Source: Plantactinospora alkalitolerans
GTDB lineage: Bacteria; Actinomycetota; Actinomycetes; Mycobacteriales; Micromonosporaceae
Reading direction: 5' to 3'
DNA: 53,344 nucleotides
NCBI RefSeq assembly: GCF_015690345.1
Contig: NZ_JADPUN010000120.1
Location: 1 to 53,344, forward strand
This document shows, one piece after another, positions 7,361-20,409 of the stretch. Position 1 is the first letter of the stretch. The number at the start of each line of letters is the position of its first letter. The notes beneath the pieces are model-generated. The model did no database searches. It saw only the letters and a list, made by a program, of their open reading frames with translations, and was not told where the DNA came from. Position numbers and translations under genes: made by a program.

Positions 7361-7433
7361 TCCCCCGTAGCTCAATTGGCAGAGCAGCCGGCTGTTAACC
7401 GGCAGGTTTTTGGTTCGAGTCCAAACGGGGGAG
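7361..7433 (+). tRNA. tRNA-Asn (anticodon GTT)
   Basis: A complete cloverleaf. Acceptor TCCCCCG (7361-7367) pairs with CGGGGGA (7426-7432), with discriminator G; the D-arm uses GCTC/GAGC, the anticodon loop is CTGTTAA and the T-loop TTCGAGT. CCA is not encoded. The 3' end doubles as the left attachment core of the 13-kb island; the downstream DNA now belongs to the island. Confidence 0.95.
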
Positions 7434-7436
7434 CTT
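7419..7436 (+). repeat. attL-like core at the tRNA-Asn 3' end
   Basis: GTCCAAACGGGGGAGCTT covers part of the tRNA T-arm, the 3' acceptor strand and three bases beyond. The identical 18 bases recur at 20392-20409 in the same orientation. Left and right flanks differ immediately outside the core. Confidence 0.85.
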
Positions 7437-8050
7437 CTGGTCAGGGAGGACACCCCGGTTCGCCGGAGGAGTTGATCTCCGGCCCTCGGTTCGGCCACAC
7501 CCTACGGTTTCTCGGCATGACGGGTGTCCGCCCAGCCCAGGTGGCGGCATGGCTCGAGCAACGACTGTGATCTGAACCGTGCTGGAAGCCGCTGCCTCTC
7601 ATGGTCCGGCGGAGCCTCTCACCTATATCGGCGGAGCCTCCTGCTTCGGGCCGGGGTGAACCCGATGGGCTGCGACCGCAACGTCCCGGTACGGCCAAAG
7701 CTGAGGGCCGGAACCGAACCTCCTTGAACAACCGAGGGTGCGAAGGTCGGGAGGACCGCGCAGTTCTGCGCCGAATCTCGATCCAGTTTGTGCTTCAGCA
7801 GTGCGGCTCGTAGTGCCGATTGACGCACGCTAATGAGAGCTCGAGGCCGCATCCGTCATCGAGTTGAGGGATCGCGGCGCCTAGCTGATCTTCGAGCCGG
7901 ACGGCACCGAGCGTTCCGCCAGGCGCGTCCGGCGCGCGGCGTCAAAGAATTTCCGGTTGGTCATTCCTTCGCTCCGACCCGTCCCATACCACCACTCAGT
8001 AGGGCTTTTCCGTGTTCGGGGCACACACCGAAAAGCCGCAGTTGGACGTT
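7437..8050. other. Intergenic left arm of the island, no gene recognised
   Basis: About 610 bases between the attachment core and the dpgA promoter. This is where an integrase gene usually sits in tRNA islands, but I find no recombinase motif in any frame; the short open frames look random. A single TTGGAC half-site lies at 8042-8047, just upstream of the promoter. Confidence 0.5.
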
Positions 8051-8053
8051 CAA

Positions 8054-8082
8054 TTGACGATCTCCGTGGGTCCGCCTAATGT
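8054..8082 (+). promoter_or_regulatory. Probable sigma70-type promoter of the dpg operon
   Basis: TTGACG (8054-8059), a 17-base spacer and TAATGT (8077-8082) match the housekeeping consensus well for a high-GC genome. The leader to the dpgA start is about 85 bases. The TTGGAC half-site at 8042-8047 abuts the -35 but lacks a good partner. Confidence 0.55.
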
Positions 8083-8169
8083 CCGGCTGGTCGAATCACC
8101 GACGCAGAAAGGGTCCGGGGAAATGTCGGAAAAGAAGATGAAGCGGATTCTGCGGAGCAAGCTGCGCAC

Positions 8170-9300
8170 GTGGGGGTGGATGTACCGATGACAACACTCG
8201 CGGTTCGCGCGGAGGACGCGTCCGTACTCGCTCGTAGGCCCGCCATCACCCGGATGGCCGGCGTGGGCACCGCCGTGGCCGGCACCCCGATCTCGCAGCC
8301 CGAACTGCTCGGCCTGCTGGAGATCACCAACCCGAAGATCCGCTCGGTCTATCTGAACAGCGCGATCGATCGTCGCCACCTCACCTTGCCCGCCGCCGAC
8401 GAGCACGGTCGCCGGGCTCCCGAGCCGCAGGGCGACCTCCTCGACAAGCACAAGCGGATCGCGATCGAGATGGGCGCTCAGGCCCTGCTCACCGCAGTGC
8501 AGCGGGCCGGCGCCACGCTGGCCGACCTGCGCCACCTCTGCTGCGTGACCTCCACAGGCTTCCTCACCCCGGGCCTGAGCGCGCTACTCATGCGGGAACT
8601 CGGTATCGACCCGCGGTGCAGCCGTTCGGACATCGTGGGGATGGGCTGCAATGCCGGCCTGAACGCGCTCAACGTGGTGTCCGGCTGGTCGGCCGCGCAC
8701 CCGGGGGAACTGGCCGTTGTGCTCTGCAGCGAGGCGTGCTCCGCCGCGTATGCCCTGGACGGCACCATGCGCACCACCGTGGTGAACAGTCTCTTCGGCG
8801 ACGGCGCGGCCGCCGTGGCGCTGGTCGCGGACTCGGGTGTCGGGGACGGCAGCGCGGGCGGCCCGCGGATTCTCAAGTTCGCCAGCTACCTGATCACCGA
8901 CGCGATCGACGCCATGCGCTACGAATGGGACCGCGAAAAGGACAGGTTCAGCTTCTTCCTTGACCCGCAGATCCCGTACGTCGTGGGAGCGCATGCCGAA
9001 ACCGTGATCGGCACCCTGCTGGACGGAACGGGTCTGCGCCGCAGTGACATCGCGCACTGGCTGGTGCACTCCGGCGGCAAGAAAGTGATCGACGCGGTGG
9101 TGGTGAATCTCGGGCTGACCCGGCACGATGTCCGGCACACCATCGGTGTGCTGCGCGATTACGGAAACGTCTCCAGCGGTTCCTTCCTCTTCTCCTACGA
9201 ACGCCTGGCCGACGAGGGTGTTGCTCGGCCGGGAGAATACGGCGTTCTGATGACCATGGGTCCGGGCTCGACGATCGAAATGGCGCTGGTCCAGTGGTGA
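8170..9300 (+). CDS. dpgA: 3,5-dihydroxyphenylacetyl-CoA synthase (type III PKS), DpgA
   Basis: DpgA condenses four malonyl-CoA into 3,5-dihydroxyphenylacetyl-CoA, the first step to 3,5-dihydroxyphenylglycine (Dpg). The catalytic Cys lies in GMGCNAGLNALN, the His in WLVHSGGKKVID and the Asn in RDYGNVSSGSF; CCVTSTGFLTPGLSA and [16 protein letters not shown] at the C-terminus are hallmark DpgA segments. Up to 376 residues from GTG 8170; ATG 8188, with GGGGGTGG upstream, and GTG 8176 are in-frame alternatives. I keep the longest because homologues, as I recall them, have a matching short leader before MTT. It is first in a tight operon with dpgB-D. Confidence 0.95.
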   Translation: MGVDVPMTTLAVRAEDASVLARRPAITRMAGVGTAVAGTPISQPELLGLLEITNPKIRSVYLNSAIDRRHLTLPAADEHGRRAPEPQGDLLDKHKRIAIEMGAQALLTAVQRAGATLADLRHLCCVTSTGFLTPGLSALLMRELGIDPRCSRSDIVGMGCNAGLNALNVVSGWSAAHPGELAVVLCSEACSAAYALDGTMRTTVVNSLFGDGAAAVALVADSGVGDGSAGGPRILKFASYLITDAIDAMRYEWDREKDRFSFFLDPQIPYVVGAHAETVIGTLLDGTGLRRSDIAHWLVHSGGKKVIDAVVVNLGLTRHDVRHTIGVLRDYGNVSSGSFLFSYERLADEGVARPGEYGVLMTMGPGSTIEMALVQW

Positions 9301-18770: not shown

Positions 18771-20096
18771 GTGCTTGCCGCTCCCGTCCCCCCGATTCCC
18801 GCCCATCCGCTGCTCGTCTTCCTGTTGCAGGCCGGGCTGCTGTTGGCGCTGGCGATTCTGCTGGGCCGGCTGGCCGAGCGCCTCCGCATGCCGGCCATCG
18901 TCGGCGAGCTCACCGCTGGCGTCCTGCTCGGACCGTCACTGTTCGGCTGGCTGGCACCCGGCCTGTCCGGATGGCTGCTGCCGGCCCAGCCGGAACAGGC
19001 CCACCTGCTCGACGCGGTCGGCCAGGTCGGCGTGCTGGTGCTGGTCGGCCTCACCGGGATCGAGATGGACCTGCGGATGCTCCGCCGCCGCGGCCATACC
19101 GCGGTCCGAGTCAGCGTGGCCGGCCTGCTGGTCCCGCTCGCCCTCGGCATCGGGCTCGGATTCCCGCTGGCCCGCCTGCTCGACGTACCTGGCGACACGG
19201 CGGTGTTCGTGCTCTTCATCGGCGTTGCCATGTGTGTCAGCGCGATCCCGGTGATCGCCAAGACCCTGCTCGACATGCGGCTCATGCACCGCGACATCGC
19301 CCAGCTCACCCTGGCGGCCGGGACCGTCGACGACGCGGTCGGCTGGTTCCTGCTCTCGGTGGTGTCGGCGATGGCGGTCGGCGGCCTGACCGGGTGGAAG
19401 GTCGGCCTGGCTCTCGCGTACCTGATACTCGTGGTCGTGGTGGCGGTGGTGATCGGCAGGCCGGTGGTGCGGGCCGCAATGCGCTTCGCCGGTGACTCGC
19501 CGGAACGGACGGTCGCGATGTCGGCGACCCTGATCCTGCTGGCCGGTGCGGGCACCCAGGCACTCGGCCTCGAGGCGGTGTTCGGCGCGTTTCTCTGCGG
19601 CATGCTGATCGGGTCCGTCGGGGAGCACAGCCGGGTCCGCACCGCCGCGCTGCGAACCGTGGTGTTGGCCGTGCTCGCCCCGATCTTCTTCGCCACCGCC
19701 GGCCTACGCATCGACCTGCGCGCGCTGGCCCACCCGACGGTCCTCGGCGCCGCGGTGCTGGTGCTGGTCATCGCCGTCGTCGGCAAGTTCGCCGGCGCCT
19801 ACCTGGGGGCCCGGCTCAGCCGCCTGAGCCGCTGGGAAGCGCTCGCCCTCGGCGCCGGCATGAACGCGCGCGGTGTCATCGAGGTGATCGTCGCCATGGT
19901 CGGCCTGCGGCTGGGCATCCTCAACACGGCCACGTACACGATCATCGTGCTGGTCGCCGTGGCCACCTCGTTGATGGCGCCACCGCTGCTCCGGATCGCC
20001 ATGCGCCGCGTGCCGGTCACCCCGGAGGAGGAGGCCCGCCGTTGCCTCGGCGCCGTACCCGCCCCGGCCTCCGACGCAGCCCTGCCGCGTAACTGA
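18771..20096 (+). CDS. Cation/proton antiporter (CPA2, Kef/NapA type)
   Basis: 441 residues from GTG 18771, chosen for CCGGAGGAG just upstream; the frame extends further but without a better start. About 12 membrane segments; typical CPA2 stretches include LAERLRMPAIVGELTAGVLLGPS, VGLTGIEMDLRML, TVDDAVGWFLL and GAGMNARGVIEVIVA. Exchanges Na+ or K+ for protons across the membrane. Sodium/proton antiporter genes recur in glycopeptide and ramoplanin-type clusters, where their role in export or pH balance is unproved. It is the last gene of the island, closed by a strong terminator. Confidence 0.88.
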   Translation: MLAAPVPPIPAHPLLVFLLQAGLLLALAILLGRLAERLRMPAIVGELTAGVLLGPSLFGWLAPGLSGWLLPAQPEQAHLLDAVGQVGVLVLVGLTGIEMDLRMLRRRGHTAVRVSVAGLLVPLALGIGLGFPLARLLDVPGDTAVFVLFIGVAMCVSAIPVIAKTLLDMRLMHRDIAQLTLAAGTVDDAVGWFLLSVVSAMAVGGLTGWKVGLALAYLILVVVVAVVIGRPVVRAAMRFAGDSPERTVAMSATLILLAGAGTQALGLEAVFGAFLCGMLIGSVGEHSRVRTAALRTVVLAVLAPIFFATAGLRIDLRALAHPTVLGAAVLVLVIAVVGKFAGAYLGARLSRLSRWEALALGAGMNARGVIEVIVAMVGLRLGILNTATYTIIVLVAVATSLMAPPLLRIAMRRVPVTPEEEARRCLGAVPAPASDAALPRN

Positions 20097-20119
20097 CCGG
20101 CCCCCGCGACAGCACAGCG

Positions 20120-20147
20120 GCGGTGGCCGTCGAGGCACGGCCACCGC
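20120..20147 (+). terminator. Terminator of the antiporter gene
   Basis: GCGGTGGCCGT (20120-20130) pairs perfectly with ACGGCCACCGC (20137-20147) around a 6-base loop, 24 bases after the stop codon. Confidence 0.75.
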
Positions 20148-20195
20148 GCGGCGCGCATGGATGTGCGTCGCCGATATTGCAGAACCGTCGGACGC

Positions 20196-20214
20196 CTCGG
20201 TCACGGTGACCGAG
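20196..20214. other. 19-bp near-perfect palindrome inside the right end of the island
   Basis: CTCGGTCAC-G-GTGACCGAG; 9-bp arms around one base, in the 295-base gap between the antiporter and attR. It could be a protein-binding site (for example recombination arm or operator). No gene is recognised in this gap. Confidence 0.35.
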
Positions 20215-20391
20215 CGGGCCCACCGATCAGAGGTCGCGAACCCCCGCCCCGGCCCTCCTGAGACGCACCGGCCAGCACCGGATCAACCGCACAGTACAAC
20301 GCATCACCGCTGACCGAAGCCGAATCCTGCCCATCCTCGCCGACGTCCCACTACCGAACCGGACATGACCACAAGACGTTGTAATCAGGGT

Positions 20392-20409
20392 GTCCAAACG
20401 GGGGAGCTT
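20392..20409 (+). repeat. attR-like core (duplicated tRNA-Asn 3' end)
   Basis: An exact 18-base copy of 7419-7436, but without the rest of the tRNA upstream. It marks the right border of the island. Confidence 0.85.

Follow-up and report, generated by a model that had tools for sequence, protein, structure and literature searches.

A tRNA-Asn island in Plantactinospora alkalitolerans that most likely carries a self-regulated glycopeptide-type precursor module

The 53,344-nucleotide contig NZ_JADPUN010000120.1 of Plantactinospora alkalitolerans, analysed here over its whole length (the window), carries a tRNA-Asn gene followed by a cassette of genes for the synthesis of 3,5-dihydroxyphenylglycine (Dpg) together with a halogenase, a regulator and a transporter. 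The cassette lies between two copies of an 18-bp repeat and, as comparison with congeneric genomes reveals, constitutes a precise insertion, referred to below as the island. The features that define the insertion are as follows.

7361–7434, plus strand: tRNA-Asn (GTT), the intact integration target (ARAGORN; the same gene adjoins the MmpL gene in five congeners)
7419–7436, plus strand: left 18-bp repeat (attachment site, att), part of the tRNA 3′ end (repeat search, empty-site alignment)
20392–20409, plus strand: right 18-bp repeat (att) (repeat search, empty-site alignment)
20422–20444, plus strand: hairpin of the tRNA-Asn transcription unit, stranded beyond the right repeat (conserved across the six sequences compared)
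20557–22731, plus strand: MmpL-type transporter gene, the core right flank (83–92% to the tRNA-Asn neighbour in five congeners)

Exact copies of the 18-mer GTCCAAACGGGGGAGCTT are present at 7419–7436 and 20392–20409, both on the plus strand, in agreement with a preliminary description of this DNA according to which an 18-bp copy of the tRNA-Asn 3′ end brackets the Dpg/halogenase cassette. No third copy occurs in the window at up to three mismatches (0 in 100 dinucleotide shuffles), and a search of the whole draft genome (9,219,182 bases in 441 contigs) at up to two mismatches returned the same two places only, against one match for a reversed-pattern control; the right copy is thus not a common genomic sequence, which the preliminary description had named as a possible objection. 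As the GC-rich window contains 20 blocks of exact direct repeats of at least 18 bp, the repeat alone is weak proof, and the weight of the case lies in the 18-mer being a tRNA end and in the existence of an empty site.

Such an empty site, reading tRNA-Asn, 18-mer, hairpin and MmpL gene as had been predicted for close relatives, is found in five of the six congeners (G001, G002, G003, G004, and G006). In all five, tRNA-Asn and the same 18-mer lie directly upstream of an MmpL gene with 83–92% identity to the one on the right flank of the island, while for the sixth congener (G005) a threshold of E ≤ 1e-150 gave no MmpL match, so that it is uninformative. A more distant genome, G326, likewise has tRNA-Asn followed directly by MmpL. 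Alignment to the five congeners places the end of left-hand homology at the last base of the 18-mer (7436) and its resumption on the right at the first base of the 18-mer (20392), so that the insertion measures 12,973 bp with ends exact to the base. The empty sites establish both the insertion and its junctions, and, as in other tRNA-associated islands, the tRNA gene is intact, its 3′ end is the point of insertion and direct repeats flank the inserted DNA. The earlier picture of a specialised-metabolite island that entered at the 3′ end of tRNA-Asn, duplicated 18 bp and left the old hairpin beyond them agrees with this comparison. We posit that integration would have rebuilt tRNA-Asn with 18 bp brought by the incoming DNA, leaving the old 18 bp and the tRNA hairpin on the far side of the island. 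The MmpL matches in G004 and G006 (L034 and L037) each contain one in-frame TGA inside the reported span.

The hairpin begins 12 bases past the right 18-mer copy and is retained in 6/6 sequences (four distinct), with 40 of 40 cells paired and two of ten pairs altered on both sides; 68 of 500 shuffles reached the observed count, and the covariation is thus no more than suggestive. The preliminary description had called this element a stranded tRNA terminator. A conserved hairpin at this distance does exist, whereas its function as a terminator is a role that we infer, the hairpin having no U-tract; a promoter and terminator scan gave no useful result.

The same tRNA gene is used by islands elsewhere in the family. 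Its core 16-mer was found in 241 of the 354 family genomes searched; multiple copies occur in only four of them, namely this genome, G187, G279, and G326. In G187 and G279, which belong to another genus, the distal repeat is not part of a tRNA gene, a tyrosine integrase is encoded 0.7–0.8 kb inside it, the repeat is about 36 bp long, and the left neighbour gene of tRNA-Asn is the same as here (89%), indicating that tRNA-Asn serves integrase-bearing islands in this family. The G187 island spans G187:C7:226626-244606, and the two ends of the G279 island fall on two contigs, C13 and C23 (loci L094–L097). The fourth genome, G326, has two inverted tRNA-Asn/MmpL copies on one contig (C143; L098 and L099), possibly an assembly duplication. 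An earlier scan of 300 family genomes with a longer tRNA pattern and one mismatch also reported two copies in G084 and G103, which fail the stricter core 16-mer used for the 354-genome count.

Between the repeats, the island contains the following features.

7437–8169, no strand assigned: left island end, 733 bp without a recognisable gene (six fragments scanned without a Pfam match)
8170–9300, plus strand: dpgA, type III polyketide synthase (3,5-dihydroxyphenylacetyl-CoA synthase) (NCBIfam NF042429, 629 bits, cut-off 425)
9294–9959, plus strand: dpgB (NF042431, 308 bits, cut-off 140)
9956–11278, plus strand: dpgC, dioxygenase (NF042432, 723 bits, cut-off 530; best PDB match 2np9, DpgC)
11275–12081, plus strand: dpgD (NF042430, 451 bits, cut-off 400)
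12261–12398, plus strand: relic (about 46 codons) of an alpha/beta-hydrolase gene, between dpgD and hpgT (protein similarity to dpg loci)
12475–12747, plus strand: small lipoprotein-like open reading frame (ORF; longest frame 12202–12747) (no Pfam or NCBIfam match)
12761–12788, no strand assigned: StrR/Bbr-type box GTCCAA-N16-TTGGAC, upstream of hpgT (pattern search, literature consensus)
12896–14260, plus strand: hpgT, pyridoxal phosphate-dependent transaminase for Dpg and 4-hydroxyphenylglycine (Hpg) (PF00155)
14257–15747, plus strand: halogenase dependent on reduced flavin adenine dinucleotide (FADH2), CndH-like, start at 14257 or 14269 (PF04820; best PDB match 3e1t, 590 bits)
16128–17222, plus strand: StrR/ParB-like regulator (44–59% to the same gene in related dpg loci)
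17235–17263, no strand assigned: StrR/Bbr-type box GTCCAA-N17-TTGGAC, upstream of hmaS (pattern search, literature consensus)
17309–18385, plus strand: hmaS, probable 4-hydroxymandelate synthase of the 4-hydroxyphenylpyruvate dioxygenase (HPPD) superfamily (best PDB match 2r5v, 291 bits)
18513–20096, plus strand: Na+/H+ (CPA2) antiporter (PF00999), given as the longest ORF, with coding signal from about 18.7 kb

All nine main genes are open and stand in operon-like order. DpgA, DpgB, DpgC, and DpgD each score above the curated equivalog cut-offs, and dpgA is the sole close match in its own genome; HpgT also has no close second copy there, the next best match being 32%. Across 17 dpg loci that contain such a gene, hpgT is 66–77% identical to the matching gene in 11 and 44–51% in the other six, while the halogenase is 68–77% identical to those of nine loci and the antiporter 55–67% to those of five related loci. 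The regulator has no Pfam or NCBIfam match and is ParB-like in PHROGs. Together with the transaminase, halogenase, HmaS and CPA2 antiporter it has counterparts in the dpg loci of other actinomycetes. The lipoprotein-like ORF resembles a protein on the dpg contig of Actinoplanes cyaneus (48% over 48 amino acids) and also one or more proteins on contig C41 of its own genome. For the hmaS product, a solved 4-hydroxymandelate synthase is the closest structure, and the C-terminal helix has the 2r5v sequence NIKALYEAVE instead of the NFKALFEAIE of the HPPD 1t47; Ile in place of the C-terminal Phe is what we take to be the mark distinguishing 4-hydroxymandelate synthase from HPPD, and the product is therefore probably the former.

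Perfect StrR-type boxes with spacers of 15–18 bp number exactly two genome-wide, both inside the island, and related dpg loci likewise carry boxes before hpgT or hmaS. The activator consensus in glycopeptide clusters is GTCCAaN17TtGGAC (PMC7852140). The island-encoded activator would probably act through the two perfect boxes to switch on an hpgT-halogenase unit and an hmaS-antiporter unit. DpgABCD and HpgT would make 3,5-dihydroxyphenylglycine and HmaS would probably make 4-hydroxymandelate, with the halogenase, antiporter and StrR-type activator completing the set. Judged by these similarities, the cargo is most likely a glycopeptide-type precursor module that is complete and regulates itself. 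A combined DpgA, DpgB and DpgC tree (22 rows, five forks unresolved, with L054 omitted as the same locus as L060) groups the island with Actinoplanes cyaneus (support 96/95) and apart from the dpg genes of the congeners G004, G005, and G006.

Candidate users of these building blocks lie outside the island, the nearest of them in the same window.

24287–24363, plus strand: tRNA-Met, the end of continuous synteny with all five congeners (ARAGORN, synteny comparison)
46943–53317, minus strand: nonribosomal peptide synthetase (NRPS), C-A-T-C-A-T, candidate user of the building blocks (two modules, codes DASTVAAVC and DAFSVGTVM)

The NRPS gene starts 27 bases from the contig end, so that it is possibly incomplete, and is located 26.5 kb to the right of the island, beyond core genes; since synteny ends at tRNA-Met, it belongs to a second variable region. 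Its first adenylation (A) domain shares 62–64% identity with the A domains of four Streptomyces dpg loci (L045, L046, L048, and L055) and 56–58% with those of two Actinomadura loci (L041 and L044). The second A region is 61–62% identical to modules on the S. iranensis contig that bears a dpg cassette and equally similar to modules on another S. iranensis contig, in a genome search that left out L043. Code positions were set by motif and pairwise alignment, and DASTVAAVC is presumably a beta-hydroxytyrosine/tyrosine code. The preliminary description set the cassette against Dpg genes inside glycopeptide clusters; it does not lack a related NRPS, however, as the A domains of the one at 26.5 kb are 61–64% identical to A domains close to the S. 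iranensis dpg genes, and the cassette is in this sense not isolated. A second island at tRNA-Met with a repeat of its own was considered and rejected, the 3′ end of that gene being unrepeated in the window save for a mismatched 16-mer at 47520 inside the NRPS, and the site is a synteny break only.

Complementary genes are also found on contig C421 (L136, L072, and L137), which encodes an NRPS, 4-hydroxymandelate oxidase (Hmo), a second HmaS, a second StrR-like regulator and a CmlA-type hydroxylase; none of the transaminase, halogenase and dpg genes of the island is present on it. The best solved match of its Hmo is 5zzp (460 bits), and of the two strong PF01070 places in the genome only the one on C421 is closest to solved 4-hydroxymandelate oxidase. 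An Hpg route would need both loci, because Hmo would come from C421 and the sole close HpgT from the island. Measured against a glycopeptide cluster, the island thus has the StrR-type regulator with boxes and the precursor genes, whereas it contains no NRPS (the related one being 26.5 kb off) and Hmo is encoded on C421 only. Assembly of the product would fall to NRPSs encoded elsewhere, probably the neighbour at 26.5 kb, the NRPSs of C421 and of several small contigs, or both. Three such contigs, C277, C296, and C320 (L069–L071), carry NRPS modules 54–58% identical to the window NRPS with codes including DAWSVGTVM, DASTVAAVC, and DALSVGAVI, and are possibly pieces of one fragmented cluster. 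An ABC/FtsX pair on C421 is 72%/48% identical to the window at 38.9–42.1 kb.

We consider it likely that this tRNA island is immobilised and that its cargo is a self-regulated precursor module belonging to a distributed pathway. A number of observations weigh against this interpretation. The genome is a draft of 441 contigs, in which nothing physically joins the island to C421 or the small NRPS contigs, and no boxes were found on the NRPS contigs examined, leaving co-regulation with the NRPSs unsupported. A reversed-pattern box control also returns two places genome-wide, so only the location of the perfect boxes is remarkable; a looser form (GTCCA/TGGAC half-sites) adds a third window site at 42847, 319 kb of background contain one loose match, and boxes with three mismatches are at chance level (12 found, 15.9 expected). 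The hmaS product scores 342 bits against TIGR01263 (cut-off 277), a model that NCBIfam names HPPD, and the PDB chains 3zgj and 7yvv are labelled HPPD yet have Ile at the same place. For P450s of the Oxy cross-linking kind, a search with one P450 from the dpg locus of A. parvosata, called Oxy-like from its heme motif and place only, found at best 40% identity in the draft genome; with no match above this level, a cross-linked glycopeptide is an unlikely product, and a classical glycopeptide was rejected. Tetranucleotide composition, which had been proposed as a further check, does not set the island apart, as both halves have frequencies ordinary for the genome compared with 47 background windows (the outliers are the left core flank and the NRPS) and thus no foreign signature. 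GC content at third codon positions (GC3) does separate island from core flanks, modestly (0.887 versus 0.934; Fisher p 1.6e-11 with codons treated as independent), and composition was set aside as a sign of foreignness.

The remaining adverse points concern mobility. No mobility gene was recognised among the ten ORFs of the island with Pfam and NCBIfam, and PF00589 has no match on the contig, compared with 24 elsewhere in the genome. The island ends yielded 26 stop-to-stop fragments of at least 38 amino acids; the nine scanned with Pfam had no match to suggest integrase remnants, and the seven scanned with PHROGs matched only weakly and only to families without assigned function, twice (E 0.003 and 0.057) and both times in the left end at 7437–8169. 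Integrase remnants at the ends were accordingly rejected as a candidate and not built upon. The 18-bp repeat is also half the length of that at the integrase-bearing islands of G187 and G279, and another kind of enzyme, or none, may therefore have acted here.

The alternative that survives best, and that we regard as possible though doubtful, is that a much larger element, or a complete peptide cluster, once occupied the tRNA and that the island is what remained after its NRPS, hydrolase and mobility genes were deleted. The hydrolase relic between dpgD and hpgT, which also counts in favour of the immobilised island, fits this account. Its best match is 54% over 46 amino acids (E 1.4e-8, L043), with others in L045, L046 (the same as L128), L048, and L055; in related Streptomyces loci the hydrolase gene comes after the halogenase, and the relic points to derivation of the island from a larger cluster. 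Box positions as in full clusters and the 733 bp of featureless DNA at the left end are further points in its favour. On the other hand, the nine main genes remain open in operon-like order between two precise ends, and comparison of 87 non-coding fragments with dpg loci yielded, besides the relic itself, only the lipoprotein-like ORF, opposite-strand shadows of the relic and two weak matches (E 3e-4 and 1e-3) to unrelated stretches. A combined DpgA, DpgB and DpgC tree (22 rows, five forks unresolved, with L054 omitted as the same locus as L060) groups the island with Actinoplanes cyaneus (support 96/95) and apart from the dpg genes of the congeners G004, G005, and G006.

That the island is still mobile, as a cis-mobilizable element that another element of the genome provides with the integrase for excision at the two 18-bp sites, appears improbable. 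In favour of it, the two 18-bp copies have the same sequence even though the right one does not serve a tRNA, the 24 PF00589 matches offer potential sources of an enzyme, and integrase-bearing islands occupy the same tRNA-Asn in another genus. However, 18 bp is too short for identity to separate a recent from an old event, no element of this genome is shown to target tRNA-Asn, and the islands of the other genus use the longer repeat of about 36 bp. An integrase of its own and transfer or replication genes, as expected of a self-mobile element (an actinomycete integrative and conjugative element, other integrative and conjugative element, or prophage), were not found in the island ORFs or the scanned fragments. 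The notion of a discrete integrative unit in the preliminary description thus stands in that the island integrated precisely as one piece, whereas present mobility is not borne out. We return to an immobilised island whose recombinase would either have been lost since or have acted in trans; it has most likely become stable, and any mobilisation would at best occur in trans.

Without any site-specific enzyme, the repeat could have come about by, for example, homologous or illegitimate recombination if the segment involved chanced to include a tRNA-Asn 3′ end, in keeping with the failure to find a recombinase gene, the shortness of the repeat and the 20 other blocks of exact repeats of at least 18 bp in the window. 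We hold this to be decidedly improbable, since base-exact joins at a tRNA 3′ end that leave the tRNA intact are a known signature of tRNA-targeted integrases and integrase-bearing islands of this family use the site. Very improbable, finally, is a cargo that serves no NRPS and yields a small free phenylglycine or phenylglyoxylate, as the restriction of perfect boxes to the island and the lack of an NRPS within it might suggest, given that the halogenase is closest to CndH, which acts on a carrier-bound substrate, that a related NRPS is 26.5 kb away and that Hmo is encoded on C421.

The preliminary description, in calling a discrete integrative unit rarely seen for Dpg genes, which it placed normally inside glycopeptide clusters, overstated the case. 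Among named DpgC loci, 5/16 have no NRPS domain in the stretch considered (flanks of up to 10 kb, several cut by contig ends), and DpgC-like genes covering at least 80% of the query are present on 14 plasmid-collection records. Of nine DpgA-like places in other family genomes, three have an NRPS domain and, among the other six, DpgC was not found in the stretch considered in three. One of the 14 plasmid-collection records, NZ_LT559118.1 of Nonomuraea gerenzanensis (11.85 Mb), is filed as a plasmid and is probably a chromosome. Among the top-ranked papers of the open-literature searches, none dealt with a stand-alone Dpg island at a tRNA gene.

Elsewhere in the window, the region from 24364 to 46900 is a mosaic, in which 43.9–45.9 kb is 79–88% identical to stretches right of tRNA-Met in G004 and 27.3–30.9 kb has an 89% match to G006; short 65–70% matches to G001, G003, and G006 right of tRNA-Met reflect regulator-gene similarity. 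Several hundred bases at 31173–31502 and 35160–35716 are duplicated in direct orientation about 4 kb apart, with exact blocks of up to 66 bp. Near the left end of the window, 103–5098 encodes two large proteins (with GSDH-type and ThuA domains), both of which also contain CBM6 and ricin-type lectin domains and whose genes have exact DNA repeats of up to 50 bp in common.

Peptide antibiotic clusters are thought to evolve by sub-cluster exchange, yet such events are seldom seen together with their borders. In this locus the junctions are exact to the base, and what was inserted would represent a single functional layer: the supply of monomers, with a switch of its own and separate from the assembly line. 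We raise only tentatively, as a somewhat unlikely proposition, that self-regulated monomer-supply modules of this kind move alone between actinomycetes via tRNA sites and plug into resident NRPS loci, with pathways completed across loci. If complementation with a distant NRPS locus is true, cluster-by-cluster genome mining would mis-predict such pathways, and the independent movement of building-block modules becomes a directly testable question. Related processes are on record. For one glycopeptide cluster, an exchange of sub-clusters that took in the antiporter and dpgABC has been proposed, and Hmo is known to be lacking from a glycopeptide cluster (both PMC11727664); horizontal transfer of glycopeptide clusters has been described (PMC10687080), the vancomycin cluster was probably brought by insertion (PMC4048454), and clusters in genomic islands are common in actinomycetes (PMC11195616).

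Compared with known systems, the island shares DpgABCD, HpgT, HmaS and a halogenase with glycopeptide clusters of the bal, vcm, tei, dbv, A47934, and kistamicin type, as well as the StrR-type regulator, the antiporter and GTCCAA-N17-TTGGAC boxes (PMC7852140, PMC11727664, and PMC4048454); unlike these clusters, it stands alone at a tRNA, without NRPS, Oxy P450s or Hmo. The S. iranensis-type loci (L043, L045, L046, L048, and L055) encode DpgA, HpgT and halogenase 74–77% identical to those of the island, and all five have a box before hpgT, as here. They differ in their gene order (hpgT-dpgABC-halogenase), in an A domain within about 6 kb after the halogenase in 4/5 (L043, a short contig, is without one) and in a hydrolase frame after the halogenase, which in L046 is open across the 145 codons inspected and of which the island retains a relic. 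The G187 and G279 islands share with this one the tRNA-Asn, the left neighbour (89%) and a distal repeat, and are set apart by their own tyrosine integrase and a repeat of about 36 bp. Islands of Salinispora and Streptomyces likewise carry biosynthetic genes, some with a tRNA and an integrase at one end (PMC11195616), whereas here only the monomer-supply part of a pathway is inserted. The aba cluster of Amycolatopsis bartoniae (PMC11727664) resembles the island in having the antiporter and dpg genes and no Hmo; it is, however, a complete glycopeptide cluster in a genome from which Hmo is absent altogether, whereas in P. alkalitolerans Hmo is encoded on another contig.

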